Source: a virus. From it: 41,769 nt of DNA. Made by a program: the position numbers and the translations under genes. This document shows, piece by piece, positions 5,964-26,510 of the stretch. Location of the stretch: positions 1 through 41,769 of the IMG/VR virus record IMGVR_UViG_3300010211_000043. One strand, 5' to 3'. The first letter of the stretch is position 1; each line of letters begins with the position of its first letter. The notes under the pieces were generated by a model that saw only the letters and a list, made by a program, of their open reading frames with translations, was not told the origin of the DNA and made no database searches.

Positions 5964-6041
5964 CTTCACGCGCGCGCGAACCAGTACTTGTTCTATGGTT
6001 CTTTTCTGTCCACCATGCCTATGGCTGGACAGGACAAGGCG
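5964..6041 (+). promoter_or_regulatory. Gap before the head module, with inverted repeat
   Basis: The only sizeable non-coding gap between replication and head genes. GAACCA (5978-5983) and TGGTTC (5996-6001) form a 6-bp inverted repeat with a 12-base spacer. AT-rich stretches (TACTTGTTCTATGG, TTCTTTTCTG) could hold a promoter, but no clean -35/-10 pair is visible. A late-module promoter or operator is a reasonable inference. Confidence 0.35.
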
Positions 6042-7241
6042 ATGTCTTTCATTCGACGCATCTTCGGTTTGGAAACTCGGTCGGGTTCGTTCGGCGAACT
6101 CGAGGCGCTGTTGCGCGAGGCCCACGAGACCGCCGCCGGCATTGCCGTTTCATCCGACGCCGCGCTGGAATACGCCCCTGTCCTGGGCGCCGTCCGGGCG
6201 ATTTCCGAAAGCGTCGGGATGCTCCCGTGCCATGTGTACCGCCGGAGCGGGGACGACCGGCGCCGCGCCGATGACCATCCCCTTGAAAAGCTGCTGTCCC
6301 GTCTGCCCTGCCCCTGGACGACCGCGTACCAGTTCAAGACCGACATGACCGCCGCCCTGATCCTGGACGGTCAGGCGTTCGCGCATGTGGCCCGCGCATC
6401 GGATGGTCGGGTTCTCGAGGTGGTGCCGCTGCCCCGCAAATCGGTGACGGTCGAGACCGATCCCCAGACCCTCGAGCCGCGCTACCGCCTGAGCCTGTCG
6501 GACGGCACTCACCGCGACCTTGACCGGACGGAGGTGTTCCACCTGCGGGGCCTGGGCATCCAGCCGAACACCGGCCTGTCCCTGATCCACGCCGGCCGGC
6601 ATGCCATCGGGCTTGGCATCGCCCTTGAGCGCCACGCGAGCCGTATCATGGCGCGCGGCGCCCGGCCGTCCGGTGTCGTCACCGCGCCGGAGGGGGTGAA
6701 GGGCGATGTTCTGGAACGCCTGAAGCTGTCCTTGCAACGGTTCCATGCGGGCGAGAATGCCGGCGGAACCCTGCTGTTGGAGGGCAAGGGCGCGTCGTTC
6801 ACACCCCTGACGTTCAACGCGGTGGACAGTCAGTTTCAGGAAATGCGGACGTTCCAGGTGGCGGAGGTGTCGCGCATCCTTCGCGTGCCGCTGTCGCTGC
6901 TGTCGGAAATGTCGCGGGTGACGCACGCCAACGCCGAAAGCCTGGGCCGGCAATTCCTCAGCCTGACCTTGCTTCCCTACCTGCGGCTTTGGGTCGAGAC
7001 CATCTACCGCGACCTTCTGACCGAAGACGAGCGCGAGGACCTGTACGCCGAACACACGACCGGCGCCCTGGAAATGGCCGACCTGGGGAGCCGCATTGAC
7101 GCCTACGTCAAGGCCATCGCGGGCGGGCTGATGGAGCCTGACGAAGCCCGCGCCCGCGAGAACCTGCCCGCGCGCGGTGGCGAGGCCGCGAAGCTGCGTT
7201 TCCCCATGAACACCGAGACGGGAGGCGCGACCGATGCCTGA
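6042..7241 (+). CDS. HK97-family portal protein
   Basis: 399 aa, the normal size for HK97-like portals. The family is recognised from its overall pattern: MSFIRRIFG start, SSDAALEYAPVLGAVRAISESVGMLPCHVYRR, then HPLEKLLSRLPCPWTTAYQFK and FQEMRTFQVAEVSRILRVPLSLLSEMSRVTHANAE near the C-terminal third. It would form the 12-subunit ring through which DNA enters the head. ATG 6042 fits the family start; a longer frame (from 5988) adds residues that do not look native. It overlaps the protease-capsid gene by 8 bases. Confidence 0.93.
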   Translation: MSFIRRIFGLETRSGSFGELEALLREAHETAAGIAVSSDAALEYAPVLGAVRAISESVGMLPCHVYRRSGDDRRRADDHPLEKLLSRLPCPWTTAYQFKTDMTAALILDGQAFAHVARASDGRVLEVVPLPRKSVTVETDPQTLEPRYRLSLSDGTHRDLDRTEVFHLRGLGIQPNTGLSLIHAGRHAIGLGIALERHASRIMARGARPSGVVTAPEGVKGDVLERLKLSLQRFHAGENAGGTLLLEGKGASFTPLTFNAVDSQFQEMRTFQVAEVSRILRVPLSLLSEMSRVTHANAESLGRQFLSLTLLPYLRLWVETIYRDLLTEDEREDLYAEHTTGALEMADLGSRIDAYVKAIAGGLMEPDEARARENLPARGGEAAKLRFPMNTETGGATDA

Positions 7242-8871
7242 TATCGAACTGCGCTTCGCCCCCACCCTGGGCGCCGAGGGGACCTTTCGGGGCCTCGCTT
7301 CGGCCTATGGCGTGTTGGATCAGCACGGCACCGCGTTCGGCCCCGGCGCCTTCTCCGCCTCCCTGGCCGAAACTCGCGCCGACGCCCGGAAAATCCCGCT
7401 GCTGCTGCACCACGACGCAACCCGGGTCTGTGGCGTGGTGGAGACCCTGACCGACACGCCCGCCGGGCTGGAGATCGAGGGCCGTTTTGTTCTCGATACC
7501 CGCGACGGCGCCGAGGCGCACGCCCTGGCAAAGGCCGGTGCCCTGGCCCTGTCCGTGGGCTTCAAGCGGGTGCGGGATCAGCCGCGCGCCGGGGGAGGCC
7601 GCACCATCACCACCGCCCGTCTGGCCGAGGTGTCCTGCGTGGCCGTGGCCAGCAACCCCAAAACCCGGATCACCGAAGTCCGGTCCACCGCCGCCCGCGC
7701 GGCGCAACAGAAGGAGTCCACCATGGACGCCAACACCGAGACCGCGCCGGAGACCCGGGCGGAGGATATCGAAACCACCGAGACCCGGGGCGACGATGCC
7801 CTGGAAACCCGTATGTCCGAGGTGACCAGCACCCTGACCGAGATCCGCACTGCCGTTGATGGCATGGGCCGCCGCCTGGATCGCGTCGAGGCCCGCGCCG
7901 GCCGCGCCGGGGTCACTGCTGCCCCCGCCTCCGAGGGCCAGGCCATCGAAACCCGCGCCTTCGATACCTTCATCCGCCGGGGCCGCGAGGCTCTGGGCGC
8001 CGAGGAAATCCGGTCCCTGCGAGTGGCCGACGACACCAGCGGCGGGTACCTGACCACGCCGGACTTCCGCGCCGACCTGCTGAAGGGGCTTCAGGAGATC
8101 AGCCCGATCCGCCGTCTGGCCGCCGTGACCAGCACCAGCGCGGGCGAGATCGTGCTTCCCAAGCTGACCGGCCGTCCGACCGCCGCGTGGGTCACCGAGA
8201 CCGGCGCCCGTACCGGCACCGAACCCGCGTTCGGTCAGGTGCGCATCCCGGTTCACGAGGCCAGCGTCTACGTGGACGTGTCCACCCAGCTTCTGGAAGA
8301 CGCAGCGATCAACGTGTCCGCCGAACTGTCCACCATGCTCGCGACGGAATACGCCCGCCTGGAAGGGGTGGCGTTCCTGTCGGGCGACGGTACCGGCAAG
8401 CCCTCGGGCATCCTGACCAGTGCCGATCTGGTGACGATGGCCAACGGGTCCACCACCGTCCTGTCGGCGGACGCCCTGATCGGCCTTCTGTACAGCCTGA
8501 AGCCGACCTACCGGGCGCGCGCAACCTGGATCATGAACCCGAGCACCATCGCCACCGTGCGCAAACTGAAGGCCAGTGACGGCCACTACCTCTGGCAGGA
8601 CAGCCTTGCCGCCGGGCAGCCGGCGACGATCTTGGGCTTCCCGGTGGCCGAAGCCGCCGACATGCCGGAGATCGCCAGCGGCGCCGTTCCGGTCCTGTTC
8701 GGGGACTGGAAGACGGCCTATCGCGTCGTCACCCGCACGGGCGTTTCGATCCTGCGCGACCCCTACACCCAGGCCACCAACGGCTTGACCCGCTTTCATT
8801 CGCGGATGCGCGTGGGGGGCGCCCTGACCATGCCCGAGGCCATCACCGGCCTGAAGATGGTAACGAGCTAA
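7234..8871 (+). CDS. Prohead protease fused to HK97-type major capsid
   Basis: 545 aa that combine two proteins usually encoded apart. Residues 1-163 match the S78/HK97 prohead protease, with histidines in LLLHHD (H59/H60), serine in ALSVGFK (S107) and glutamate in LAEVSCV (E132). Residues from about 164 are an HK97 capsid: a delta-domain-like helical stretch (TRMSEVTSTLTEIRTAVDG), then DDTSGGYLTTPDFRADLLKGLQE and a standard coat core to the end. An internal ATG at 7723 with AAGGAG seven bases upstream would give a free 382-aa capsid protein, so both forms may be made. The protease would cut the scaffold during maturation. Confidence 0.92.
   Translation: MPDIELRFAPTLGAEGTFRGLASAYGVLDQHGTAFGPGAFSASLAETRADARKIPLLLHHDATRVCGVVETLTDTPAGLEIEGRFVLDTRDGAEAHALAKAGALALSVGFKRVRDQPRAGGGRTITTARLAEVSCVAVASNPKTRITEVRSTAARAAQQKESTMDANTETAPETRAEDIETTETRGDDALETRMSEVTSTLTEIRTAVDGMGRRLDRVEARAGRAGVTAAPASEGQAIETRAFDTFIRRGREALGAEEIRSLRVADDTSGGYLTTPDFRADLLKGLQEISPIRRLAAVTSTSAGEIVLPKLTGRPTAAWVTETGARTGTEPAFGQVRIPVHEASVYVDVSTQLLEDAAINVSAELSTMLATEYARLEGVAFLSGDGTGKPSGILTSADLVTMANGSTTVLSADALIGLLYSLKPTYRARATWIMNPSTIATVRKLKASDGHYLWQDSLAAGQPATILGFPVAEAADMPEIASGAVPVLFGDWKTAYRVVTRTGVSILRDPYTQATNGLTRFHSRMRVGGALTMPEAITGLKMVTS
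7711..7725 (+). promoter_or_regulatory. Internal ribosome binding site and start inside the capsid fusion
   Basis: AAGGAG at 7711-7716 followed by ATG at 7723, in frame with the fusion. It lies exactly at the protease/capsid boundary, where a separate capsid gene would start. This is better than most starts in the window and suggests nested production of unfused capsid protein. Confidence 0.6.
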
Positions 8872-8919: not shown

Positions 8920-9051
8920 CGCTCCGGGACGGAGCGGGAACAGGGGCCGACCAACGGGACGTTGCGGCCCTGACCGACGCCATCCATCGGGATGATGGGG
9001 TGTCGGTGCCCTGGCCAGGGTGCGGCGGAGGGATCCAGCCCCCTCCGCCGC
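8920..9051 (+). other. Intergenic hairpins after the capsid gene
   Basis: The 207-bp gap between capsid and HNH holds two strong stems. CGCTCCG (8920-8926) pairs with CGGAGCG (8930-8936) around a 3-base loop. GCGGCGGAGGG (9022-9032) pairs with CCCTCCGCCGC (9041-9051) around 8 bases. Neither is followed by a T-tract, so they are not textbook terminators. They may limit read-through after the most-needed protein or protect the mRNA end. Confidence 0.5.
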
Positions 9052-9078
9052 CTTGGCATAGATGGAGACGAACACGCC

Positions 9079-9402
9079 ATGCCGACCCGTCCGCCCCGCG
9101 TTTGCCCACGGTGCCGCCGGCCTGTGCCTGCGGGGCAGCGGTGCGATTGCACGCCACGCCCCACGGACCCGCGTCCGTCAGCGCATCGGCGGGGCTATGG
9201 GGTGAACTGGCGCCGACTGCGGGCGAACCTGATGCCCGAGGGTACGCGCTGTGTGCGCTGTGGTGCCCCGGCTGAACACCTGGATCACATCCGCCCGAAG
9301 CGGCTGGGCGGGACCGATGATCCGAGCAACCTGCAACCCCTGTGCGGGCGCTGTCACCGCAGTTGGAAACAGGCCATGGAGGCCCGCCATGCTGACCGTT
9401 GA
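9079..9402 (+). CDS. HNH endonuclease, terminase-associated
   Basis: 107 aa. Cysteine pairs CPRC (N-terminus) and CVRC / CGRC (around the core) bind structural zinc, and the HNH core is EHLDHIRPKRLGGTDDPSNLQPLCGRCHRSWK, with the first catalytic His in LDH, the Asn in SNLQPL and the last His in CHRSW. HNH proteins of this type sit next to terminase genes in cos-packaging HK97-like phages and are needed for terminal cutting. Start ATG 9079 follows GGAGACG. It overlaps the connector gene by 14 bases. Confidence 0.9.
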   Translation: MPTRPPRVCPRCRRPVPAGQRCDCTPRPTDPRPSAHRRGYGVNWRRLRANLMPEGTRCVRCGAPAEHLDHIRPKRLGGTDDPSNLQPLCGRCHRSWKQAMEARHADR

Positions 9403-10169: not shown

Positions 10170-10272
10170 GGACCCCACCCCCGGGGGCGGGTCGAGAATT
10201 TCGGTCGAAGGGGTCCGGGACCGGCTGGGGGGTCACGTGCGAGATGGGCCGGAAATTGGAGGTTTTGCAGCC
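10170..10272 (+). promoter_or_regulatory. GC-rich gap before terS, possible cos region
   Basis: This 103-bp gap has a near-perfect hairpin (10171-10193, GACCC..GGGTC outside a CCCCC/GGGGG core) and a second G-rich stretch (GGGGTCCGGGACCGGCTGGGG). A ribosome binding site GGAGG (10258-10262) precedes terS. In cos-type phages with an HNH gene, the cos site commonly lies just before terS, so this is the best place to look for it. No cohesive-end sequence can be proven here. Confidence 0.35.
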
Positions 10273-10683
10273 ATGAAGGGCCGGAAGCCGAACCTGTCGG
10301 TGGTCGAGGGCGGGAAATCCGCCGGCCGGGCACCGCCGCCGCCGTCCTGGATGGCCGATCACGCGAAGGCCGAATGGAAGCGGGTCGCGCCGGAGCTTCA
10401 CCGCCGGGGCCTGCTGACCGCCGAGGCCCGGGCCACCCTGGAAAGCTACTGCATCGCCGTCGGCACCGTTCGCGAGACCGAGGAAACCTTGATCCGGGAA
10501 GGTCGCACGGTCGAGGGCGAACGCGGCCCGGCCGTTCATCCGGCCTTCAAGGTGCAACAGGGGGCCATGCGCGAGGCCCGGCTTTTGGGCTCCGAACTGG
10601 CGTTGACGCCGCACCGCCAAGCCCTGCGAGGAAAGACCGATGACGACGCCAGCGACGGATGGGGCGACCTGGTGGACGGCTGA
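10273..10683 (+). CDS. terS: Terminase small subunit, P27 family
   Basis: 136 aa. The start MKGRKPNLSVVEGG followed by PPPPSWMADHAKAEWKRVAPELHRRGLLTAEARATLESYCIAVGTVRETEE is the P27/TerS_4 pattern. It recognises the packaging site and hands DNA to TerL. ATG 10273 is chosen because GGAGG lies 10 bases upstream; an upstream in-frame start at 10237 adds unlike residues. It overlaps terL by 44 bases, a common arrangement. Confidence 0.9.
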   Translation: MKGRKPNLSVVEGGKSAGRAPPPPSWMADHAKAEWKRVAPELHRRGLLTAEARATLESYCIAVGTVRETEETLIREGRTVEGERGPAVHPAFKVQQGAMREARLLGSELALTPHRQALRGKTDDDASDGWGDLVDG

Positions 10684-12310
10684 CCAATGCCGCCCCGCCT
10701 GGCTGTTCGATGACAGCCCGATCCCGGACCCTCATGGGAAGGGCGCCCGGGCCGTGGCGTTCGTGGAACGCCTGACCATCACCGAGGGACCGCGCGCCGG
10801 GCAACGCCTGGGGAAGGTCTTGGCACCCTGGCAACGGCGCCTGATCCAGCGCGTCTATGGGGACACCCTGCCGGACGGTCGGCGCCGCTTCTCCGACGTG
10901 GCCGTGTGGCTCCCCAGGGGCAACGGCAAAACCACGCTGATTGCCGCGCTGGGGCTGTTGCACCTGCTGGGGCCGGAACGCGACGCCGCCGGGCAAGTGG
11001 TGGTCGCGGCCGCCGACCGGGGGCAAGCGTCCATCGGCTTCGGGCACGCGAAGCGGTACGTCGAGGCCGACCGCACCCTGTCCCGGATCGTTCGCGCAGT
11101 GGAATCCCAGAAGGAGTTGCACCACGGCAAATCCGGGTCCGTGCTGAAGGCCATTTCCCATGAGAGCTACACCAAGCACGGGCTCAACATCTCCCTGCTG
11201 ATCGGGGACGAAATCCACGCATGGCCGGCGCATTCGGGCCGCGAACTCTGGCGCGTGCTGCGGACCAGCATGGGCAAGCGGGCCGATCCCCTGACCATCA
11301 CCATTTCGACCGCTGGCGTGGGCCGGAACACGCTCGCCTGGGATCGCTGGCAGCATTCCCACGCGGTGGCGAAGGGCGAGCGCGACGACGAGTCCTTTTT
11401 ACCGGTGATCTTTGCCGCCCCGGACCCGCCCGAGGGCGAAGACCTTCCCTGGCAGGACGAAGCCCTGTGGCACGCGCTCAATCCAGCCTTGGGCGCGTTC
11501 CTGTACCTGGACGAACTGCGCAAACTGGCGCGTCAGGCCGCGCCGCTGCCCCACGAGGTGGAAGGCTGGCAACAACTGCACCTGAACCGCTGGATTGACG
11601 GCAGCGTGGCCGGGTGGGTGGCGATGACGTCATGGGATCGCGGGTCCGACCCTGTGGACCTGGACGCGCTCGAGGGCCGCTCGGCCTGGATCGGCGTTGA
11701 CCTGTCCAGCACCACCGACTTGACGGCCGTGGTGCTGGCCCTGCCCGACGATGACGGCGGGGTGGACGTGGTGCCGTTCTGCGTCGTCCCGGCCGACACC
11801 ATGCGCCGCCGGGCGGAGGTGGACGGGGTGCCGTATCCCACATGGGCGGACACCGGCCTTCTGACCGCGACCCCGGGCAATGTGGTGGATTACGGCGCCG
11901 TCGAAGCCTGCATCATCGACCTGTGCGAACGGTTCGACGTCCGAGAAGTCGCCATGGACCAGTGGAACGCCACGGGCTCCATCACCCGCCTGCAAGAGGC
12001 CGGGGTTCCGGTGACCACCCACCGTCAGGGCTTCGTGTCCATGAGCCCGCCCATGAAGGACACGGAACGGCTGATCCTGTCCGGCAAGCTGCGCCACGGC
12101 GGACACCCGGTGTTGCGCTGGTGCGTGGGCAATGTGGTCCCGGACAAGGACCCGGCCGGCAACATCAAGCCGTCCAAGGCCCGGGCGAAGGAGCGAATCG
12201 ACGCCGCAACCGCGCTCATCATGGCCGTGGGCCGCGCCGTGGCCGGCGAAGGCGCGCGTTCGATCTACAACGACGAATCCGCCCGCCCGGACGGCTTCCT
12301 GATCCTGTAG
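10640..12310 (+). CDS. terL: Terminase large subunit, HK97 type
   Basis: 556 aa packaging motor. ATPase domain: Walker A LPRGNGKTT (91-99), Walker B SLLIGDE (about 185-191, catalytic E191). Nuclease domain: IGVDLSSTTDLT with D354 and D360, and a later acidic residue in ERIDAATALI. Length and motif spacing fit the Terminase_1 family. It would pump the element's DNA into its own heads. Presence of both TerS and TerL means the element does not need the helper's packaging enzyme. The 44-base overlap with terS supports coupled translation. Confidence 0.95.
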   Translation: MTTPATDGATWWTADQCRPAWLFDDSPIPDPHGKGARAVAFVERLTITEGPRAGQRLGKVLAPWQRRLIQRVYGDTLPDGRRRFSDVAVWLPRGNGKTTLIAALGLLHLLGPERDAAGQVVVAAADRGQASIGFGHAKRYVEADRTLSRIVRAVESQKELHHGKSGSVLKAISHESYTKHGLNISLLIGDEIHAWPAHSGRELWRVLRTSMGKRADPLTITISTAGVGRNTLAWDRWQHSHAVAKGERDDESFLPVIFAAPDPPEGEDLPWQDEALWHALNPALGAFLYLDELRKLARQAAPLPHEVEGWQQLHLNRWIDGSVAGWVAMTSWDRGSDPVDLDALEGRSAWIGVDLSSTTDLTAVVLALPDDDGGVDVVPFCVVPADTMRRRAEVDGVPYPTWADTGLLTATPGNVVDYGAVEACIIDLCERFDVREVAMDQWNATGSITRLQEAGVPVTTHRQGFVSMSPPMKDTERLILSGKLRHGGHPVLRWCVGNVVPDKDPAGNIKPSKARAKERIDAATALIMAVGRAVAGEGARSIYNDESARPDGFLIL

Positions 12311-12319
12311 GGGGTGACG

Positions 12320-13162
12320 ATGACACCGGACCTGAAGACGCCCTTCCGCCTGCTGGGACAGGCCGCCGTGTACAGCCCGACCGCCGGCGCCCCGGTGGCG
12401 TGCCAAGCCATGCCCGTTGGCGGAGGGCAGGTGTTCACCGTGGGCCGCGTCCAGTTCACGGCCGAGCGGCCGTTGTTCCACGTTCGCAGGGCGGAGGTGT
12501 CACCTGCTGCCGGTGGCGTGCTGACGGTGGATGGCACCGCGCACCCTGTCCAGGCCGTCGAGCCCGTCGAGGGCGATCCCCGTGGGCTTCTGTGGCAGGT
12601 GGTGCCCGCTTGGGGCGCGCTGTTCGATTGGACCACCCCGGGCAGCGGCGGGGGCAGTCCTTACGATCCCGTCGGGGACACCGTGACGCTGACGGCGCGG
12701 GCCGCGAGCGCGGGGGCAACCACTGTGACGCTGGTTGCGTCCACCTGGACATCCGGGCGCGTCCGCGACGGTGACACGCTCACGATCGAGGGCACGGATT
12801 ACACTGTCACGGGCGACGTGCCCTTGAGCCTGGATGGTCAGTCGTATGTGTTCGCCAACGTGCCGATCACACCGGGCCTGAGCGCGGCCCTGAGCGGTGG
12901 CGAATCCGTGACCTACCTTCCGGCCGGGGGCAGCAACGCGCGCCTCGTGCGGGCCGCCGTGGCGGACTACGAGGCCAGCGAGATCATGGCCGGAATCCTG
13001 ACCGGCGACCGCCGGCTTGTCGTGCGGGCCGGCGATATCAACCCAGCGCCCACCACCAGCGACACGGTGGAGATCGACGGCACCGACTGGTCCGTCGTTT
13101 CGGTCGAGGCCATTCATGTCGGCGCCGACGTGGTGGCGTGGGTGTGCCAATTAAGGCGATGA
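12320..13162 (+). CDS. Head-tail adaptor, probable fusion of two joining domains
   Basis: 280 aa. The front (about 5-95, FRLLGQAAVYSP...VGRVQFTAERPLFHVRRAEV...LTVDGTAHPVQ) resembles lambda FII-type head-tail joining proteins. The back (about 205-280, YEASEIMAGILTGDRRLVVRAGDI...DTVEIDGTDWSVVSVEAI) resembles the HK97 gp10-type joining proteins. A middle beta-rich section (VTLTARAASAGATTVTLVAS) links them. These proteins form the end of the head onto which a tail docks. It is the last gene of the element; no tail gene follows, so the tail must come from elsewhere. A GTG at 12314 is an alternative start. Confidence 0.75.
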   Translation: MTPDLKTPFRLLGQAAVYSPTAGAPVACQAMPVGGGQVFTVGRVQFTAERPLFHVRRAEVSPAAGGVLTVDGTAHPVQAVEPVEGDPRGLLWQVVPAWGALFDWTTPGSGGGSPYDPVGDTVTLTARAASAGATTVTLVASTWTSGRVRDGDTLTIEGTDYTVTGDVPLSLDGQSYVFANVPITPGLSAALSGGESVTYLPAGGSNARLVRAAVADYEASEIMAGILTGDRRLVVRAGDINPAPTTSDTVEIDGTDWSVVSVEAIHVGADVVAWVCQLRR

Positions 13163-13223: not shown

Positions 13224-13251
13224 TTCGCCCCTAGAGTGAACTAGGGGCGAA
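13224..13251 (-). terminator. Strong intrinsic terminator of the defence operon
   Basis: TTCGCCCCTAG (13224-13234) pairs perfectly with CTAGGGGCGAA (13241-13251) around the loop AGTGAA. On the minus strand it is followed by ATTTTTTATT, a clean T-tract, so it ends transcription coming from the deaminase and the small ORF. On the plus strand only TTT follows, so it would be weak in that direction. Confidence 0.85.
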
Positions 13252-13315: not shown

Positions 13316-13483
13316 TCAAGTAGCCATAGCGGTATTCTTGTTTCTGATCACCGAAGAAAACTCAGAGCTATATGACTCTTTTCTTCTTATATTGCGAAGT
13401 ATAATTTCCTTTTTCCAGGTTTCTAGTTTTTCGAACTTCTCCTTTTCCCTCTCGATTCTTCTGAGAATTTCGGAATCCTGCAT
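13316..13483 (-). CDS. Small lysine/glutamate-rich protein downstream of the deaminase
   Basis: 55 aa, starting five bases after the deaminase stop, with CAGGAG placed inside the last deaminase codons. The sequence MQDSEILRRIEREKEKFEKL and onward is highly charged and probably a coiled coil; the end is polar. The AT-rich codon use matches the deaminase gene and not the neighbours. A terminator follows about 65 bases downstream. Not a family I recognise. The position suggests a partner or modulator of the deaminase, but this is inference. Confidence 0.6.
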   Translation of the reverse strand: MQDSEILRRIEREKEKFEKLETWKKEIILRNIRRKESYSSEFSSVIRNKNTAMAT

Positions 13484-13488: not shown

Positions 13489-14877
13489 TTACTCCTGATT
13501 GGGGCGTATTTTTGCTCTTAATTCTTCGAGGTTGATCCTATCCGTAAGAGAACTATAGGCGTTCTCCATCGCGAGATAGCTGTAGCCTGCAACTACCCCT
13601 TTTGGACTATGCTCTCTCGGACGCCAAATAACCGAATAACCCTGTTCGTCTTTCCGCTTTTCCGCTGCGAACAAACGAAAATACAGTTGAGGTGCTACAC
13701 CCCGGAACGGCTCGAACGAAACCGCCGCGGGATGGTCGCCCCCTTCCCCATCAACAACGGTTGAAGCCCGGTACAAGTCCTTCGTCATGCTTTTGGGATA
13801 GGGTTCGATATAGACAACTCGGCGGACGCCGGATCCTATAATGTGCCTGGCGCACATATGACATGGAAAGGTTGTGCAATACAATGTGCCACCGAAAACG
13901 GCCACACCCCTTCGGGCCGCCTCAATGATCGCATTCATTTCAGCGTGAACAATCCTTCCAAACTCAATCAAACTTCGAATCCGAGTCCCCTTAAGGGCTT
14001 CCTTGTATTCACCATACACTAAATTTATCGTAATTTCATCGTCGCTGCAACTTTCTGGGATATTTAGCAAATTCAAACGCCGCAGTCCGGACACTATTTC
14101 TTTAACGATGTCATTCCTTATAACTGCATTTGCATCGCGGCCATGACGAAAGTCACGGTCATCATATTTTTCCGCATCGCCGTCCCAAAACACACCTCCA
14201 CCAGATGCAGGCACCTCATTGCATCCAGAAGAAATGTGATCACCCTCACAACTAGTCAGAACTGCCCCAACTTGTCGTGACAAATCTGCCGAGCGGAGCG
14301 CAACCGCCCTAGCATGAAACATCCAGTATTCATCCTTTTGGGGAGTTATAAATGGGCTTCCAAATATAAGATCGACAAATCTCTGAACTTGATCATCAAT
14401 ATCGGCACTAGATGAGATAAAAAAATCTGCTTCCGGAAAAGCGTTTCTAACATCTTGCTGATAATCACCCCCTCTATGTTCATCAATTTCAATAATTTCT
14501 TTTGCCTTTTGTTCAAAATCACCGTCAGCGAGTGACAGATGTGACTTCGCTATCCTCTTTTTAAGGTTTTCAAGACGAATCTGCCTTGTTGTATACACTG
14601 AAATCGCAAAAAAAGCCGAACCGTACACGTCCCGAAGAGCCCGCACTTCTTCGGGGTGCTTTAACGAATCGAAAATATATGCAGTTGCATCTGCCGGCTG
14701 CCCCTCAGGCGTTCCAGCTTCTTCTCTGTAACTCGCGAGCAGCGGGAGAACGTAGAACAGGATCGCTTCACCTGTCTTAGCAGCGTCCCGTATTCGATCG
14801 CCCCCGTCGATTAGGGTGCGAATTCGCACCTCTTCATGGTTCATGCTCGGGTAACTGGCCTCGGCAACCCCGCACAC
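13489..14877 (-). pseudogene. avcD: AvcD/DcdV-like anti-phage dCTP/dCMP deaminase, 5'-truncated
   Basis: 462 residues are readable. The C-terminal half is a zinc deaminase: HAEMNAI (H311 ligand, E313 proton shuttle) and TTFPCHMCARH (C339, C342 ligands). The N-terminal part matches the end of the P-loop-containing domain of AvcD-type proteins (AYIFDSLKHPEEVRALRDVYGSAFF, about 66-90), but the P-loop itself and roughly the first 70-90 residues of the family are missing. The frame stays open only to 14901, at the Mu-like left end. AvcD-type enzymes deplete dC nucleotides during phage attack. GTG 14877 (or ATG 14844) is only an apparent start. The DNA is AT-rich, unlike both neighbours, suggesting transfer. 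Confidence 0.85.
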
Positions 14878-14894
14878 TTCAGCGATGACGTCAC

Positions 14895-14960
14895 TGTGTG
14901 ACTAGGCATGAGGTATGAGACAACCGGGATACGGTGGGATTGACCGGAATATATTGGGAT
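14895..14960. repeat. Mu-like left end with 20-bp spaced repeats
   Basis: Two copies of ACCGGRATAYRKTGGGAT lie at 14923-14940 and 14943-14960 (14 of 18 positions identical, 20-bp period). The hexamer TGAGAC recurs at about 14916, 14996 and 15039. Transposable phages carry such repeats at their ends as transposase binding sites. The proposed terminal bases are TGTGTGACTAGG from 14895. Confidence 0.6.
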
Positions 14961-15044
14961 ACAAAGAAAAATTGGGCTCTCCGTAAAATTTGGTTTGAGA
15001 CGGGGGCCCTGATCTGAATCCTGGTTTTGGTAGAGATTTGAGAC

Positions 15045-15077
15045 ACGGCGGGCGATGCGATCCCCCGCCGTTTTTTT
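15045..15077 (+). terminator. Intrinsic terminator facing into the prophage
   Basis: ACGGCGGG (15045-15052) pairs with CCCGCCGT (15064-15071) around 11 bases and is followed by seven Ts. Flanking GAGACAC / GTGTCTC can extend the pairing. It stops rightward transcription from the host into the prophage. It does not look like a terminator for the leftward repressor transcript, because no T-tract lies on that side. Confidence 0.8.
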
Positions 15078-15157
15078 GTGTCTCGGTGTGCGTATCTGAG
15101 GTTGATATACACGTCTTGATGTATACATTTTATGGGCATTAAAAGGGCGAACAACCC

Positions 15158-15721
15158 TCAGGCCGAGTGTTTACCGGCCTTGGAGGCCGTCGGCACCGCC
15201 ACGAGTTCCCGACGGAGTTGCTGAAGCCCCATGCGGATGGCGGCGCGGCGGGCGGGTTCGGGGTCCGGATCGCCTTCGGTGGCCGCCATCACATCAGCGT
15301 AGAGGCGGCCGGCCATTTCCCCGGCCGACCGGTCGTCGATGCGGGCATTGACGTCCCGATACACGGCCCTAACCCCTTCAAAGCATAGCCCTAATAGGTG
15401 TCCATCCAGCGGTGGGCCGCTTTGCGGAACAGGCGCGGGCTCCGGTGTTACCGGGGCAGGAGCGCCCGCCTCTTCCTGGTCGCGGCGCATTGGGCCTTGG
15501 CCCGTAGCGAGCCAATCCAAGCTGATGCCATGGGGAGATGCTAGGCGCGCCAGGGTCTCAAAGGGCGGGCGGCTGGTTCCCTTAGCATAAGCGATCAGCT
15601 GGTCCGTGGATTTGCCAGCGGCTTCAGCGGCAGATGTCCGGTCTGGATACAGATCGAGCACCTTGGATATGCGGCTTCCCAGATTCGAGATCAAAGTGGG
15701 AACGCTGATCTGATCCGTCAT
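15158..15721 (-). CDS. Phage repressor, XRE-type HTH
   Basis: 187 aa from the preferred ATG at 15721 (MTDQISVPTLISNLGSRISKVLDLYPDRTSAAEAAGKSTDQL); an in-frame ATG at 15781 would add 20 residues. The N-terminal 70 residues form a helix-turn-helix, with SAAEAAGKSTDQLIAYAKG as the recognition part and FETLARLASPHGISLDWLATGQGP as the following helices, a common CI-type ending. The middle is a proline-rich linker and the C-terminus is helical (possible oligomerisation). No LexA-like peptidase residues are visible. Divergent from the Ner-like gene, it should hold the lysogenic state. Its leftward transcript runs toward the truncated deaminase. Confidence 0.8.
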   Translation of the reverse strand: MTDQISVPTLISNLGSRISKVLDLYPDRTSAAEAAGKSTDQLIAYAKGTSRPPFETLARLASPHGISLDWLATGQGPMRRDQEEAGAPAPVTPEPAPVPQSGPPLDGHLLGLCFEGVRAVYRDVNARIDDRSAGEMAGRLYADVMAATEGDPDPEPARRAAIRMGLQQLRRELVAVPTASKAGKHSA

Positions 15722-15943
15722 GAGAAATTCCCATTTTTCATAAGATATTGGTTTTTCTTGTATTTTTATCTCTCCGGACATATCCGCCCCGAAAGCGAAC
15801 CGGGAACGGAAATATGCGTCACAAGAACCCGGAAAAATCAGTTGCTATACCGTAAATCTCCGGCTACCCTTCTCCCGTTCGTCAAAACCAACCTCCATTT
15901 TTTCCGGCCCGATGGGGCCGGATTAACAAGGAAAGGGTACCCG
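15722..15943. promoter_or_regulatory. Divergent operator/promoter region of the Mu-like phage
   Basis: AT-rich 222-bp gap between the repressor and the Ner-like gene. CCGGAAAAA (15829-15837) and TTTTTCCGG (15899-15907) are an inverted pair, and further CCGG-centred motifs (TCCGGACATATCCG at 15773, ATCTCCGGC at 15856) may be operators. No single clear -35/-10 pair stands out. AAGGAAAGG precedes the GTG start of the Ner-like gene. Confidence 0.55.
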
Positions 15944-16288
15944 GTGCCGCGCCAGCGAGAAGACCTCCCCCCGGAGACCATCCGCCATCTGTTGAACCGT
16001 CGAGGACTGACCTTTGCGGACGTGGACCGGATGAACGGTCTGGCCGAGGGGTCGGCCCGCAAGGCGGCCCGCTACCCGATGTGGGCCGGTGAACTGGCGA
16101 TTGCCGAGGTCCTGGGGCGATCTCCCCGCGAACTATGGCCGTCCCGCTATCAGCCGGACGGCAGCCGCAAGCGGCCGATCCCGATGGACCTGTACCGGAA
16201 CCCGCCGCGTCTGCGACCGGCCCCTTCATCTTCGAAATCTACACGGACCGCCGAGCGCGGTCAGCGGCAAAAGGAGCGCGTGGCATGA
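15944..16288 (+). CDS. ner: Ner-like DNA-binding protein
   Basis: 114 aa. The core EDLPPETIRHLLNRRGLTFADVDRMNGLAEGSARKAARYPMWAGELAIAEVLGRSPRELWPSRY is the Ner/Nlp pattern: an HTH followed by the family ending G..P.elWPSRY. Mu Ner turns down the early and repressor promoters after infection. GTG 15944 is chosen because AAGGAAAGG lies upstream and Ner proteins start just before this motif; the frame is open further upstream but that sequence is not protein-like. The C-terminal tail is basic and longer than in Mu Ner. Confidence 0.88.
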   Translation: MPRQREDLPPETIRHLLNRRGLTFADVDRMNGLAEGSARKAARYPMWAGELAIAEVLGRSPRELWPSRYQPDGSRKRPIPMDLYRNPPRLRPAPSSSKSTRTAERGQRQKERVA

Positions 16289-16321
16289 GCATCGGCGCGC
16301 TCCCCCTTGATGGAGATTCCC

Positions 16322-16531
16322 ATGCCCAAACCTACTCAGCTTCCGTTGCTGCTGGTGACCTTTCCCGACGGCAGCGTGGCCGCGTTCCCGGTCCATACCG
16401 AGGCGGTGGGGAAATTCTCGGTCGACCTGACGGGGCCGGACGGCGTGGCGGTTGGGGACAGCGCAGCCGGTCGGTGGGGGCGCGACCTGCTGACCCCCGC
16501 CCCGGGTGTTTCGGTACACCTGGACTTCTAG
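16322..16531 (+). CDS. Small early phage protein, 69 aa
   Basis: MPKPTQLPLLLVTFPDGSVAAFPVHTEA begins a beta-rich sequence ending in LLTPAPGVSVHLDF. TGGAG lies just before ATG 16322. Family not recognised. A competing frame from 16285 overlaps the ner stop (ATGA) but reads as an R/G-rich shadow. Function unknown; it sits between ner and the transposition genes. Confidence 0.55.
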   Translation: MPKPTQLPLLLVTFPDGSVAAFPVHTEAVGKFSVDLTGPDGVAVGDSAAGRWGRDLLTPAPGVSVHLDF

Positions 16532-16609
16532 CCCTCACCCATCACGACCTGGGGCCGGGCGACTCTGCATCGCACTGGGCGCCCGTCCGCTTTTTGAGGA
16601 GTGCATGCC

Positions 16610-17092
16610 ATGCGTGATCGTGCCGACCGCCGCACGCTGGATCTACTGGCCTGGGAGCCCCCCGAAGTGGTGCGCGCCTTTCCGGTCGAGCATGTGCGCG
16701 CCGCATCGATGCGCGCGCAAATCAGCAAAGCGGTCGCGGCGGTATTGAGGGATTGCGAGACGTCCCGCGAAGACATTGCGACATCCATGTCGGACTACCT
16801 GGGCGAGGCGGTGCCGAAGACGGCGCTGGACGGCTACGCCAGCGAGGCGCGCGAAGACCATACGATCAGCGTCGTTCGATTGATGGCCTTGGTTCATGCG
16901 ACCGAAGACGTGCGTCTTCTTCAGCTTTTGGCCGAATCATTCGGCTATGTCGTGGTCGATGCCAAGCACCGTGACGCCATTGAGGAGGTCATCGACCTCG
17001 ATCGTCGCGACGAGGTAACCGAATATCTGGAGCGGCTGGAGCAGCGGATTGACGCCCGGCGACGGCGGCGGCGCGGAGGGTCGCACCGATGA
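16610..17092 (+). CDS. Early regulator-like protein before the transposase
   Basis: 160 aa, mostly helical. Residues about 25-85 (VRAASMRAQISKAVAAVLRDCETSREDIATSMSDYLGEAVPKTALDGYASEAREDHTIS) look like an HTH-type DNA-binding fold, and the C-terminus is an acidic-then-basic coil ending RRRRRRGG. Genes like this often lie directly upstream of MuA in alphaproteobacterial transposable phages. GAGGA precedes ATG 16610. It overlaps the transposase start by 4 bases, so the two are coupled. A role in transposition or its control is inferred. Confidence 0.75.
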   Translation: MRDRADRRTLDLLAWEPPEVVRAFPVEHVRAASMRAQISKAVAAVLRDCETSREDIATSMSDYLGEAVPKTALDGYASEAREDHTISVVRLMALVHATEDVRLLQLLAESFGYVVVDAKHRDAIEEVIDLDRRDEVTEYLERLEQRIDARRRRRRGGSHR

Positions 17093-19224
17093 CCACGGTG
17101 CGTCTTCCGTCCACGGCCCTTGCGTCCGATGCGACTTGGTACACGGCCGACGAGTTGGCGGCGCTGAAGTTGCCGGGCCTGCCTACGACCAAGCGGGGCG
17201 TCAATCTGGTAGCTGCCCGTGAAACCTGGTCACACCGGCCGCGCAAGGGCCGGGGCGGGGGCCGGGAATATCCGGTATCGGCGCTTCCGGACAAAGCCCG
17301 CGCGGCCCTGGCGCGGCGCGCGCTGGCGGCGGAGGCCCCCGCCCCGGCGGTGGTGGCGGCGGACCGAGGACAGCGCGACCCGGCGGACCTGAAGGATACC
17401 GCGCGGTCTTGCATGGATGCACGGGCGGCCTTGTGCGCCGAAATCGATCGGCTGTGCCTGGAATACGGGCTGAGCCAACGCCAAGCGGTGTTGGCGCTGG
17501 TCGATCAGGCCAAAGCGGGCACCCTGGCGGAGCATCTGGCGCGGATGGTGCCCCAGGCCAACGCACGGGGCGGAAAAACCGGGGCGCGGACATTGTCGCG
17601 GCCGACCCTTTCGCGCTGGCTGGCGGCGCGGGCGGTGGGCGACGTCACGGCCTTGGCCCCGGCGGAAGAGCAGCCGCGCGAGCTGGCGCCGTGGGTTTAT
17701 CCCCTGATGAAGCTGTATCACCGGCCGCAAAAGCCCTCCATCGCCGCCTGTCTGGACTGGTGGCCGGAGGATGCCCCGGTTCCGGCGCCGTCCTATGACC
17801 AAGCGCGGCGGTTCATCCGCAGCTTGGGCGCGGTGGCCAAGAACAAGGGCCGGGTCGGGCCGCGCGACCTGAAGCGGTTGCGCGCGCTGCTGATCCGCAC
17901 TTTCGATCACCTGTTGCCCGGCGACGTCTACACGGCGGACGGCCATTGCCATGACCGGGAAATCGCCCACCCGCTGACCGGCAAGCCGTTCCGCCCGGAA
18001 ATCATCGGCGTGGTGGACGTGGCCACGCGGCTGTGGGTGGGGTGGTCGGCCTGGACGGCGGAATCCGAATGGCTGGTGAGCGCCGCCTTGCGGGTGGCGG
18101 TGATCGAGCATGGCGTTCCGGCGATTTGGTACGTGGACAACGGATGCGGCTTCAAGAACCGCGCCCACAATGATCCCGTCACGGGCCTGATGGCCCGGTT
18201 GGGAATCACCCTCAAGCACTCGATCCCCTACAACTCCCAGGCCCGTGGCGTCATCGAGCGTTTCCATCAGACTGCCTTGATCCGCCCGGCGCGGCAATCC
18301 ATGGCCTATGTCGGCCACGATATGGACCGCGAGGCCCGTCACCTGGCGTTCAAGGCCGGGCGGAAGGACATTAAAACCTTCGGCCACAGCCCGGTCGTTC
18401 AGCCGTGGGACGCGTTCCTGAGCGAAGTGGAAGCGTGGCGCGCGGATTACAATACTCGTCCGCACTCCGCCTTGCCGCGCACCCGCGACCCCGAAACCGG
18501 CAAGATGCGGCGACGGTCCCCGGCGGAACAGTGGGAGGCGTTGAGCCAAGAGGCCGAAGCCCTGGGCGTTGCCCCGGTGCGGCTGTCGGCCGAGGAGGCG
18601 CGCGACCTGTTCCGGCCGCACGAACTGCGCACGGTGCGGCGCGCCTGGGTGCATCTGCACAGCCGCAAGTATTTCAGCCAGACGCTGGATGATTTGGACC
18701 TGCACGGCCAAGAGGTTCGCGTGGAATACGATCCGCGCGACATGGGCCGGGTGTGGGTGCGGGACCTTGAGGGGCGGTTGATCTGCGAGGCGGCCGAAAA
18801 CGGTAACGCTCGCCCGTACTTCAACGATGACGATGTGTTGGCCGCCCGCGAGCGCCGCGCCACGGCAGCGGAGGCCTTGCCGATTCGCGACGAAAGCGCG
18901 GTGCCGCATCTGCTGGCCGAGTCCCCGGTGCCCGCCCCCCGTCAACTCACTGCCGACGAACAGGCCGCGAAGGCCCGGTTGGCGGCGGAGATGGCGGCGG
19001 ACCGGGCGGCCCCCACCAAACCCGAAACCCCGAAAGACCGCTGGTGGACGGCGCGGCAAACGCTGGACGCGCACGCGGCCGGACGACCGGTGGACGCCGA
19101 CGCCCTGCGTTGGGCGCAGGGGTACGCCGGGACGCCCGAGTACCGGTCCCACGAAGGGCTTTATGAGGATTTCGGAGAGATCTACCTGCGCGGCCTGCCC
19201 GGAATGACGGCCGCCGCCGGATAG
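17089..19224 (+). CDS. MuA-like DDE transposase
   Basis: 711 aa, close to Mu A in length. The N-terminus (about 15-75) is a Mu-type winged HTH for end or enhancer binding (WYTADELAALKLPGLPTTKRGVNLVAARETW), and a second helical DNA-binding region lies at about 105-185. The RNase-H-like core holds D284 (TADGHCHD), D350 (YVDNGCGF) and E390 (SQARGVIERFH), the catalytic triad. The C-terminal part includes a Mu-transposase C-terminal beta-barrel (VHLHSRKYFSQTLDDLDLHGQEVRVEYDPRDMGRVWV). It cuts and joins phage ends to target DNA. It works with the ATPase encoded 60 bases downstream. Confidence 0.95.
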   Translation: MTTVRLPSTALASDATWYTADELAALKLPGLPTTKRGVNLVAARETWSHRPRKGRGGGREYPVSALPDKARAALARRALAAEAPAPAVVAADRGQRDPADLKDTARSCMDARAALCAEIDRLCLEYGLSQRQAVLALVDQAKAGTLAEHLARMVPQANARGGKTGARTLSRPTLSRWLAARAVGDVTALAPAEEQPRELAPWVYPLMKLYHRPQKPSIAACLDWWPEDAPVPAPSYDQARRFIRSLGAVAKNKGRVGPRDLKRLRALLIRTFDHLLPGDVYTADGHCHDREIAHPLTGKPFRPEIIGVVDVATRLWVGWSAWTAESEWLVSAALRVAVIEHGVPAIWYVDNGCGFKNRAHNDPVTGLMARLGITLKHSIPYNSQARGVIERFHQTALIRPARQSMAYVGHDMDREARHLAFKAGRKDIKTFGHSPVVQPWDAFLSEVEAWRADYNTRPHSALPRTRDPETGKMRRRSPAEQWEALSQEAEALGVAPVRLSAEEARDLFRPHELRTVRRAWVHLHSRKYFSQTLDDLDLHGQEVRVEYDPRDMGRVWVRDLEGRLICEAAENGNARPYFNDDDVLAARERRATAAEALPIRDESAVPHLLAESPVPAPRQLTADEQAAKARLAAEMAADRAAPTKPETPKDRWWTARQTLDAHAAGRPVDADALRWAQGYAGTPEYRSHEGLYEDFGEIYLRGLPGMTAAAG

Positions 19225-19284
19225 GAACGGTCCGCACGGGGTGGCACCCCCGACGCGAACCCACAATGGACACACGAGGAGACC

Positions 19285-20073
19285 ATGACCGCACACAGGA
19301 TCGAAGTCAATGCCACCACCGCACCGCTCACCAATGTGGCGTTGTTCGGCGGGTTGGTGGATCGATTGATCAACCGCCCGCGTCACCTGCCCGGGATCGG
19401 TTTGTTTTATGGGTTCAGCGGGTTGGGAAAGACCTGGTCGGCCACCCATGCCGCCCATCGCACCCGCGCCCGCTATATCGAGTGCGGCGAAAGCTGGACC
19501 AAGGGCAAATTTTTGAAAGCCTTGGCGATCGAGGTCGGCGTGGAGCCGCGCGGCACGGCCGCCGACTTGGTCGAACGCATCATCATGGCTTGCGAAAGCC
19601 AGGATCGGCCGATCCTGATCGATGAGGCCGATCACATCGTGCGCAAGGGCTTTATCGAAACGGTGCGCGAGATCGCCGACAAGTCCGGGGTGCCCATCAT
19701 CCTGATCGGGGAGGAACAGCTTGCGGCGGCCATCGCCGCGCGGTCCGAACGCTGCCACAACCGGGTTTTGTCGGCGGTCGCCGCCCAGTTGGTAACGGCC
19801 GATGACGTCGCCTTGGTGGCGGGCTTGTATTATCCGCGTCTCGACATCGCCATGGATCTGATCGAGCGGATCACGACGGAAAGCGCCGGACGCATCCGGC
19901 GCGTGGTGGTCAACCTGCACCGGGTCGCGGAGACCGCTGCAACCGAGGGCTGGGACGGCGCCCCGGCGCCGATCACCCTGGTCAAGTGGGGCGATCGCCC
20001 TTTGTACACCAATGCCGTCCCGGCCCTGCGGGCGGCGGAGCGTCTGCCCAGCCGGGCGGGAGGCCGCCGATGA
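19285..20073 (+). CDS. MuB-like AAA ATPase, target-DNA activator
   Basis: 262 aa. Walker A GFSGLGKT (43-50) and Walker B PILIDEAD (109-116) with an AAA+ core, and a short helical lid at the C-terminal end. MuB binds target DNA, delivers it to the transposase and gives target immunity. GAGGA precedes ATG 19285. The pair MuA/MuB in this order is diagnostic of transposable phages. It overlaps the next gene by 4 bases. Confidence 0.93.
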   Translation: MTAHRIEVNATTAPLTNVALFGGLVDRLINRPRHLPGIGLFYGFSGLGKTWSATHAAHRTRARYIECGESWTKGKFLKALAIEVGVEPRGTAADLVERIIMACESQDRPILIDEADHIVRKGFIETVREIADKSGVPIILIGEEQLAAAIAARSERCHNRVLSAVAAQLVTADDVALVAGLYYPRLDIAMDLIERITTESAGRIRRVVVNLHRVAETAATEGWDGAPAPITLVKWGDRPLYTNAVPALRAAERLPSRAGGRR

Positions 20074-20735
20074 GCCGGTTGCCTTGCCATGTCGAAGCGG
20101 CCTTGCGGGTGAGGGTGAAGCGCGGTCACCAGGGTGTTTGGGACGCCATTCGGGACCGGCGCGGGGAGGCTTGGACCCTGCGCGAGATCTGGCTTGCCAC
20201 GGCGACGTACAGCGTCGAGGCCGTTCGCGACTACGTGCACCGTCTGGCCTTGGCCGGGTATGTGGACCGCGTGGGCGCGGCCACTTTTACAGGCGCGCAA
20301 GCGATCCCCTGGCGCCTGATCCGCGACGCCGGGCCGGAGGCGCCGCGCCTGCGCCGGGACGGCTCCGAGGTTCCGCCGACGGCGCAGGAGGCCATGTGGC
20401 GCACGCTGCGCATGATCGGCCGCGACGGCGTAACCGCCGATGATCTGGTGGTGATGGCCTCGACGGAGACTACCGCCGTCGCCCGCACCTCGGCGAACCG
20501 CTATCTGCAGGCGCTGGCCCGCGCCGGATATCTGCGGGTTTTGGAAGAGGGCAAGCCCGGCCACGGGAAGCAAGGCGCCGCGTTGGCTCGCTATGCCCTG
20601 CGCGCCGGACGTAATAGCGGCCCGGCGGCGCCGATGATCGCCCGCATCACCCACGCCGTGTGGGACCCGAACCTTAATCAGTGGGCCGAGGGCGCCGAGG
20701 CCGACGTCTCCGGTGCGGGAGGCGGTCATGGGTGA
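20070..20735 (+). CDS. Winged-HTH early protein
   Basis: 221 aa with two wHTH-like parts. The first (about 18-65) is GVWDAIRDRRGEAWTLREIWLATATYSVEAVRDYVHRLALAGYVDRV, and the second (about 105-165) is AMWRTLRMIGRDGVTADDLVVMASTETTAVARTSANRYLQALARAGYLRVLEEG. Such double-wHTH proteins are frequent in the early block of Mu-like phages of Alphaproteobacteria. Its ATG overlaps the MuB-like stop. It probably binds DNA; its target is unknown. Confidence 0.8.
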   Translation: MSRLPCHVEAALRVRVKRGHQGVWDAIRDRRGEAWTLREIWLATATYSVEAVRDYVHRLALAGYVDRVGAATFTGAQAIPWRLIRDAGPEAPRLRRDGSEVPPTAQEAMWRTLRMIGRDGVTADDLVVMASTETTAVARTSANRYLQALARAGYLRVLEEGKPGHGKQGAALARYALRAGRNSGPAAPMIARITHAVWDPNLNQWAEGAEADVSGAGGGHG

Positions 20736-21162
20736 CGCCGCGACGCTCCCGCCCGCCGAGGGCCGGGCCATGACCCGCGCCCGCACCGCCTGGGGCGACG
20801 TCCTGCCCGATGCCGTGCACGCCCTGGCCATGGCCTGTGACGCGGAAAGTCAGGCCCGCGTTGCGGCGCGCATCCTGCGTCGCGACGGGCGCGGATCGTA
20901 CAGCGCCGCCGTCATCAATCAGGTGTTGGGCCGGGCCTATCCCGGCGACATGGACGCGGTGTTGGCCGCCGTGACCGCCGCCCTGATCCCCGATCAAGTG
21001 CCGTGCCCCGGCCTGGGCGAGGCCATCGGCGCCGCCGATTGCTGGGACTGGCAGACCAAGGCGCGGAGCCCGGCCGTCGCCACGTCCAGCCATCGCATGC
21101 GCATGCGGCGCGCCTGTCAGGCGTGCGCGCGCTTTCACGAGGAGGAGGACCGCCGATGCTGA
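20728..21162 (+). CDS. Early phage protein, 144 aa, cysteine-containing
   Basis: The first part (about 15-90) is helical and HTH-like (AESQARVAARILRRDGRGSYSAAVINQVLGRAYPGDMDAVLAAV). The second part has CW and two C-x2-C-type positions (CQACARFHEEEDRRC). It overlaps both neighbours by 7-8 bases. This family is common beside MuB-like genes, but no function is known to me. Confidence 0.75.
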   Translation: MGDAATLPPAEGRAMTRARTAWGDVLPDAVHALAMACDAESQARVAARILRRDGRGSYSAAVINQVLGRAYPGDMDAVLAAVTAALIPDQVPCPGLGEAIGAADCWDWQTKARSPAVATSSHRMRMRRACQACARFHEEEDRRC

Positions 21163-21521
21163 GTCATGACCTGACAAATCTGCGGATGCATTGGCTGGGC
21201 GTGTTGCGCGGCGACGTGCCGCCCCCCGGCCCGGAGAGAATCGCCGATCTGGTGAACGGTCTCGGCGACTGCATCGCCCAGGCGGAGGCTCTGGAACGCG
21301 GCATCGTGCCGCAGACCTTGCCGCTCGTCACGGATCGCGACGAGCGCTCCGCTCGGGATGTGGTGCGGCAGTGGTTGGACGATCTCCCGACCGATCGACG
21401 CCGACATGCCGAAGCGGTGATGGACGCCGTAACGACGGCCTGCCGGGCCCACCTGGATGATTCCGCAGCCCCCGCCCCTCGGGCGTCCCGGCGGCGCAAA
21501 CGCACGGAGGGCACGGCATGA
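21156..21521 (+). CDS. Early phage protein, 121 aa
   Basis: Mostly helical: LRMHWLGVLRGDVPPPGPERIADLVNGLGDCIAQAEALERG, then a basic end RASRRRKRTEG. No recognised domain. Starts within the end of the previous gene (7-base overlap) after GGAGGAGG, so the start is well supported. Function unknown. Confidence 0.7.
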   Translation: MLSHDLTNLRMHWLGVLRGDVPPPGPERIADLVNGLGDCIAQAEALERGIVPQTLPLVTDRDERSARDVVRQWLDDLPTDRRRHAEAVMDAVTTACRAHLDDSAAPAPRASRRRKRTEGTA

Positions 21522-21679
21522 AAACGTATATCCCCGATCGTCCGCCGATGGACGCGGAGGTTGCGCTGACGTTGCCGTCGGGCGCCGTCTTGCGTGGTCG
21601 TCTGAAGACGGCGCGCACCCTGGTCGGCGGGCGCGAGGTCTGGGCGCTGGCGGGGCCGCCTCCCGGAGGCACCGGATGA
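21518..21679 (+). CDS. Small early phage protein, 53 aa
   Basis: Begins MKTYIPDRPPMDAEVALTLPSG and continues as beta-like strands with VLRGRL and GGREVWALAG. The ATG overlaps the upstream stop and the stop overlaps the next ATG (ATGA), a typical run of coupled small genes. No family recognised. Confidence 0.6.
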   Translation: MKTYIPDRPPMDAEVALTLPSGAVLRGRLKTARTLVGGREVWALAGPPPGGTG

Positions 21680-21783
21680 TCGCCCGCCTGCTGGCGACCG
21701 GCGCCTTGGTGCCGGCTCCGCCCAGGCGGCGGCCGGGCCTGTTTCAAATCCTGTTTAAACGCCTTTGGAGGGCTTTTCGATGA
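21676..21783 (+). CDS. Very small basic protein, 35 aa
   Basis: MIARLLATGALVPAPPRRRPG followed by an amphipathic basic end (FQILFKRLWRAFR). It is chained by ATGA overlaps on both sides. It could be a real micro-protein or only a coupling leader for the DUF3164 gene. Confidence 0.4.
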   Translation: MIARLLATGALVPAPPRRRPGLFQILFKRLWRAFR

Positions 21784-22436
21784 CGGTTCAAATCCCTGAG
21801 ATCACCCTTCCGGCGCCGCCGGTCACACCGCCCGACGGGTTCGTGATGGATGCCAAGGGACACATGATCCCGCAGGCTGCCGTCAAGCCGCACCAACAGC
21901 TTGAAGATCAGATGGTGCGCAAGGTTTTGGGCTTCGCGGCGGACCTGGCCAATCAAATTCGTCGCTTCAAGGGACATGTGTTCGACGACGCCAACAGCTA
22001 CATGACGTTGGCAGCCGAGGAATACGGCGCCACCAAGCGCGGCGCCCGGGGGAAGGGCAACGTGACCTTCACCACCGTCGACGGCCTGATGAAATTCCAA
22101 ATCGCGGTCGCCGACCGACTGACCTTCGGGCCGGAGCTTCAAATTGCGCGCGACCTGTTCGACGCCTGCATCGCCGATTGGGCCGAAGGCGCGCGTGCGG
22201 AACTGCGCGCCCTGGTGGACAGCGCCTTCCAAGCCGACAAGGAGGGACAGGTCTCGCGAGATGCCGTTTTCCGTCTGCTGCGCCTGGAGTTCGACGACGA
22301 CCGCTGGCGCAAGGGGCAGGACGCCATTCGCGACAGCATCCGCGTTATCGGTTCGAAGGCTTACGCCCGCTTTTACATCCGCGACGATCAACAGGCCGCA
22401 TGGCGTGCGGTTCCGATCGATCTGGCGGCGGCATAG
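21780..22436 (+). CDS. DUF3164 family protein
   Basis: 218 aa. The segments GFVMDAKGHMIPQAAVKPHQQLEDQMVRKVLGFAADLANQIRRFKGHVFDD and GNVTFTTVDGLMKFQIAVADRLTFGPELQIARDLFDACI match the DUF3164 pattern, a protein common in the early region of Mu-like phages. Its function is not established; the position (after transposition genes, before GemA) suggests a replication or host-takeover role. ATG 21780 overlaps the upstream stop. Confidence 0.88.
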   Translation: MTVQIPEITLPAPPVTPPDGFVMDAKGHMIPQAAVKPHQQLEDQMVRKVLGFAADLANQIRRFKGHVFDDANSYMTLAAEEYGATKRGARGKGNVTFTTVDGLMKFQIAVADRLTFGPELQIARDLFDACIADWAEGARAELRALVDSAFQADKEGQVSRDAVFRLLRLEFDDDRWRKGQDAIRDSIRVIGSKAYARFYIRDDQQAAWRAVPIDLAAA

Positions 22437-22451
22437 GGGGAGGGACGCGTC

Positions 22452-22985: not shown

Positions 22986-23242
22986 TGGCACGTCGTCGCA
23001 TGCCCCGGCGGGGACAATGCCTACCGCCGCATGACGCTCTGCCTCTGGCTCAGGTCCTGAGCCCGGGGTTGCATGCCACGCTGTTGGGCGATGGCTTCAC
23101 GCTGACGCCCACGGTGCGGCCCTACTTGCGCACCGACGGCCATGTGTCCATCCGGCTGGTCTGGCGGTGCCGGCACCGAGGCGATAGCGCCAGCGTCAGC
23201 ATTACCCATGTGGTGACCGTGGACGGGAGGTCGGGGCCATGA
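22985..23242 (+). CDS. Small basic early protein, 85 aa
   Basis: Begins MARRRMPRRGQCLPPHDALPLAQ and ends with beta strands (HVSIRLVWRCRHRGDSASVSITHVVTV). The ATG overlaps the upstream stop; its own stop overlaps the GemA start. It has no recognised family. The basic head suggests nucleic-acid contact. Confidence 0.65.
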   Translation: MARRRMPRRGQCLPPHDALPLAQVLSPGLHATLLGDGFTLTPTVRPYLRTDGHVSIRLVWRCRHRGDSASVSITHVVTVDGRSGP

Positions 23243-23697: not shown

Positions 23698-23698
23698 C

Positions 23699-24159: not shown

Positions 24160-24225
24160 GGGACCCCTGGCCGGCGGTAGACGCATGGTGATCTCACGCT
24201 CCACCGAGACGTGAGGGAGGCCATC

Positions 24226-24819: not shown

Positions 24820-24822
24820 GTC

Positions 24823-26509: not shown

Positions 26510-26510
26510 T

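Follow-up and report, generated by a model that had tools for sequence, protein, structure and literature searches.

A Mu-like transposable phage has most probably transposed into an anti-phage dCTP deaminase gene that is cargo of a tRNA-integrated, head-only phage satellite, a chance hit that most likely left the gene inactive. We put the probability of this reading of the window (the whole 41,769-nucleotide stretch of viral DNA analysed here) at about 90%. If it works as AvcD does, the intact enzyme would exhaust dC nucleotides in a phage-infected cell by deaminating them. With the insertion, the first 42 codons, the DNA upstream of them and the ribosome site would have been parted from the rest of the gene by a prophage at least 26.9 kb long, and the kinase-like domain would have lost its first two strands with the loop and helix between them. 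On present evidence this would be a recent chance hit in dispensable DNA. The earlier note on this DNA, made from the sequence alone, had described a deaminase gene split by a Mu-like prophage at this place, and profile searches and an intact sister copy bear it out; it overlooked that this gene is carried by a phage satellite as cargo and does not belong to the bacterial chromosome proper.

The split deaminase gene

The remnant is identified as an anti-phage dCTP deaminase by PADLOC (dCTPase, E=3.9e-140) and matches Pfam PF00383 (dCMP deaminase, E=3.8e-20). Enzymes of the AvcD kind (NF041025, PADLOC dCTPase) have the same two domains, a kinase-like N domain and a zinc-dependent dC-nucleotide deaminase; the window copy differs from them in lacking the first 49 residues. 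Its zinc active site, which the earlier note had seen, is present with the motifs HAE and PCxxC; none of the 45 homologues compared deviates at the corresponding columns (H360-E362 and P387-C391, numbered as in the intact sister protein).

That sister protein comes from a related element found by a scan of IMG/VR, L002 (IMG/VR 3300010211_000008, 16165 bp), which was also the only record there to match the N-terminus of the deaminase. The L002 deaminase has 511 aa, starts with GTG at 502, is 96% identical to the window copy and continues without interruption across the break point. The two sequences can be aligned up to 14896 (plus strand ...GATGACGTCACTG) and diverge after it, the window running into TGTGACTAGG, which is phage, and L002 into ATCCGG, which is still within the gene. 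The displaced part corresponds to L002 bases 502-629, or 42 codons and two bases, and 49 residues are missing up to the first usable start, fewer than the 70-90 codons first estimated. From that start, GTG 14877, the frame is open for 462 aa, equivalent to residues 50-511 of the intact protein.

The phage side of the junction was established separately. In the window and in two other prophages (G002 and G995), with three unrelated flanks, the phage end begins TGTG and keeps the same register to the conserved end sequence; in three further genomes (G992, G991 and G923) the phage ends have diverged too far or are lost at contig ends, and these were left out of this comparison. As the break point set by L002 coincides with the terminus checked independently in G002 and G995, the edge of the remnant is exactly the edge of the phage: the Mu-like prophage cuts into the gene at 14896/14897 with its left end. 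Both this break and the stop codon contributed by the phage end (Table 1) lie inside the interval, about 14895-14904, where loss of the frame had originally been placed.

The remnant contains no stops or frameshifts over its 462 codons, and its dN/dS relative to L002 is 0.165, a value that covers mostly the time before the insertion and cannot date the event. Together the open frame and this ratio fit an insertion that looks recent, with no further decay. The small ORF directly after the deaminase gene may encode a partner of the enzyme.

Table 1. Features of the window discussed in the text, in order of position.
Feature	Position	Strand	Basis
Satellite tyrosine integrase	1..1278	+	annotation
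Satellite primase/helicase	2818..5556	+	annotation
Satellite portal protein	5988..7241	+	annotation
Satellite head protease fused to major capsid protein	7234..8871	+	annotation
Satellite HNH endonuclease	8992..9402	+	annotation
Satellite small terminase	10237..10683	+	annotation
Satellite large terminase	10640..12310	+	annotation
Satellite head-closure protein, last backbone gene before cargo slot	12314..13162	+	annotation
Terminator-like hairpin closing the deaminase unit	13224..13251	-	terminator search
55-aa ORF directly after the deaminase, kept in L002 (dN/dS about 0.10), no family	13319..13483	-	sequence comparison
3' remnant of anti-phage dCTP deaminase (AvcD/NF041025 kind)	13489..14896	-	profile matches and L002 comparison
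CACTG, putative 5-bp target duplication (left copy alone within record)	14892..14896		L002 empty site
Mu-like prophage, left end TGTGACTAGG..., right end beyond record	14897..41769	+	gene content and terminus comparison
In-frame TAG from phage end, blocks read-through into remnant	14902..14904	-	sequence
Phage left-end repeats GAGGTATGAGACA / GAGATTTGAGACA	14910..15045	+	repeat search
Phage repressor, transcribed toward remnant	15158..15781	-	annotation
MuA-like transposase	17089..19224	+	phrog_310, E=8e-153
MuB-like transposition protein (MuB ATPase)	19285..20073	+	phrog_296, E=2e-48

Consequences for the enzyme

The loss of the N-terminus takes the window copy below the threshold of its own family. 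Against the NCBIfam model for anti-phage dCTP deaminase (NF041025, curated cut-off 400 bits) the intact L002 protein scores 422 bits from model position 1, while the remnant scores 392 bits from position 54, as a broken member. The lost part contains the conserved loop GLIGAAGTD and a strand-helix-strand unit of the N-terminal kinase-like fold. This loop (GLxGPxGxD; GLVGPIGVD and variants) is found in 78 of 82 homologues as well as in L002, and is absent from the window copy. The claim that an N-terminal P-loop domain is missing is therefore right about the N-terminus, but the loop is degenerate and a canonical Walker A motif occurs in none of the 82 homologues, so "P-loop" is to be read as P-loop-like.

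Structure prediction agrees with this division of the protein. In the AlphaFold model of the intact enzyme (mean pLDDT 89.5) the lost part forms a strand (8-13), a helix (20-33) and a second strand (37-42); the N domain resembles an AdkA-like (adenylate-kinase-related) kinase (3h0k, E=3.5e-6) and the C domain resembles dCMP deaminases. The remnant, when modelled, also fails to form the strand that spans residues 114-119 of the intact enzyme, and its new N-terminus has a pLDDT of 35. The catalytic domain is still modelled confidently and is predicted to fold, which counts against loss of function. Conservation of the N-terminus and the loss of its fold in the remnant nevertheless make loss of function likely, and the truncated deaminase would most likely be inactive though its zinc domain is intact. 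Other broken copies occur in the deaminase family (L041, L073, L076, L077 and L081), with frameshifts, a deletion or only a C-terminal fragment.

The satellite and the prophage

Judged from its genes, window 1-14896 is a head-only satellite that resembles a capsid-forming PICI, with the deaminase as its exchangeable cargo. It matches cf-PICIs (PMC13230959) in having an integrase, primase, portal, protease, capsid, adaptor, closure protein, HNH endonuclease and both terminases; as in cf-PICIs, tail genes are lacking, with none in the satellite part of the window (1-13162), where its own head and packaging genes are present. The relatives of this satellite measure about 14.6-16.2 kb and have the same cf-PICI-like content. 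An AlpA or Stl-like regulator, as in cf-PICIs, was not recognised in the window satellite; a 93-aa ORF at 2212-2490, considered in the regulator search, has no Pfam or NCBIfam match. The primase gene carries a 114-bp in-frame tandem duplication at 3558-3793 that is absent from the sister satellites.

IMG/VR holds three close relatives (L002/G001, L107 and L108). In L107, and likewise in G999, the entire element lies between two tRNA-Ala (cgc) att cores, which points to site-specific integration in these relatives; G001 is the core-to-core unit of 16165 bp, and the att sites of the window satellite fall outside the record. Direct repeats GGGGAACAC follow the integrase (window 1246-1270), with inverted copies near the right att site (L107 22138-22230), and are also present in the relatives G001 and L125. 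A cargo slot lies between the last backbone gene and tRNA-Ala; in L107 and G999 it contains other small genes in place of the deaminase found in the window and in G001. The cargo (13301-14896) is about 97% identical between the window and G001, whereas the adjacent closure gene is about 70% identical, and dS between the window and its sister is 0.10 for the deaminase and 0.50 for the terminase. These differences suggest that cargo was probably exchanged between satellites recently, after the backbones had diverged. Phage satellites that carry defence systems are already known (PMC11389934); the cargo of the distant satellites L112-L119 does not consistently consist of defence genes. Two of these, CP099479.1 (L112, Roseomonas mucosa) and NZ_CP157016.1 (L113, Paracoccus marcusii), are deposited as "plasmids" of 16.9 and 17.5 kb with head and terminase genes and no annotated tail genes, and may be satellite plasmids.

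Window 1-14896, L089, L107, L108 and L125 form a head-only satellite lineage of Rhodospirillales in tRNA-Ala (cgc), and the host bacterium probably belongs to this order. No identical copy of the satellite terminase was found in 385 sampled alphaproteobacterial genomes (best 50% identical), nor in 397 genomes from the order of Neoroseomonas (G008) or 317 from the order of Thalassospira (G007), where the best was 95% identical; among the genomes searched, close satellite terminases occur only in Rhodospirillales. The intact deaminase had no close match in 73 genomes of one family.

The prophage has the gene order transposase, MuB, late activator, endolysin, terminases, portal, protease, capsid, baseplate and tail proteins, and the record ends within it, the last ORF (tail) being open at 41769. 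Since the deaminase is satellite cargo, the insertion both breaks a defence gene and probably oversizes the satellite: at about 16 kb plus at least 26.9 kb of phage, the combined element would be too large for the satellite's own capsids, and the satellite is probably immobilised. A related Mu-like transposase with two in-frame stops (L127, G999:C69) lies in a genome that also carries the satellite.

Chance, selection and the fate of the remnant

The gene might instead be a naturally short form starting near residue 50, where a GTG start is indeed correctly placed. This candidate is refuted by the full-length, 96% identical L002 protein. The earlier note had proposed to look for homologues that begin at the same residue, and the split-gene interpretation withstands that comparison as well, given how widely the N-terminal motif is kept; of the four homologues without it, one is frameshifted (L041), one sits at the start of a contig (L054) and one consists of a C-terminal fragment (L081), and the match of the fourth, L032, begins at L002 residue 4 with a motif that differs. 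A false join, made in assembly, of a satellite contig to one from a Mu-like phage might be suspected because the record ends within the phage, but the join falls exactly at the phage terminus set by two other prophages, and we consider such an artefact very improbable. It is somewhat less far-fetched, though still quite unlikely, that the lysogen produces the truncated deaminase from the transcript of the phage repressor and that the protein is active there or misfires. The interval between the repressor and the remnant (15157-14897) has no recognised leftward terminator, in agreement with the earlier note, and the strong hairpin within it, at 15045-15071, carries its T-run on the opposite strand; the remnant frame is also fully open and its catalytic domain foldable in prediction. 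Against this stand the in-frame TAG and the loss of the conserved N-terminal core. The intact gene has a ribosome site GGAGAGGG before its start, and no Shine-Dalgarno-like sequence precedes the remnant starts GTG 14877 or ATG 14844. Since the prophage now separates the original ribosome site from the remnant, phage-controlled expression is at most a possibility.

A broken defence gene also invites the thought that selection favoured the knockout, with the phage or its host cell better off once a dNTP-depleting defence was lost, which would make the insertion an act of counter-defence. The target does act against DNA replication, and there are precedents: transposition of the Mu-like phage DMS3 removes CRISPR from self-targeting lysogens (PMC11406979), and IS insertions have been reported in CRISPR and 12 other defence gene clusters (PMC10359306). 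However, this is a single event, and accessory cargo is a place where insertions survive by chance anyway. Only three insertions of this phage family can be read: besides the deaminase case, one directly follows an IS66-like transposase gene (an identification made from its sequence) and another lies in unannotated DNA. With one of three in the deaminase, targeting of defence genes is unsupported, and the "record of conflict" seen by the earlier note is an interpretation to which these insertions lend no pattern. We therefore regard selection as unlikely. Still less likely is the broader proposal that insertion into satellite cargo benefits this family of transposable phages, in that disarming an anti-replication defence and oversizing the satellite would remove a competitor and its weapon together. 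A chance insertion into satellite cargo remains the preferred reading.

That mobile DNA breaks defence genes is already known, from IS elements and from a Mu-like phage. The insertion described here shares with the IS cases, in which CRISPR-Cas and other defence genes are inactivated, a transposing element that breaks a defence gene (PMC10359306), but here an entire transposable prophage is inserted and the target is satellite cargo. As with DMS3 in Pseudomonas aeruginosa, Mu-like transposition removes a defence, but the DMS3 events are large deletions under self-targeting in the laboratory (PMC11406979), whereas this is one simple natural insertion with no sign of selection. It provides a natural case, exact to the base, in which a transposable phage breaks an anti-phage gene and an intact sister copy is available for comparison, and it assigns the deaminase to the slot for exchangeable cargo in a lineage of head-only satellites from Rhodospirillales. 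The pair formed by the window and L002 can serve two questions: whether transposable phages are found in defence cargo more often than chance would have it, and whether a prophage within a satellite stops the transfer of that satellite.
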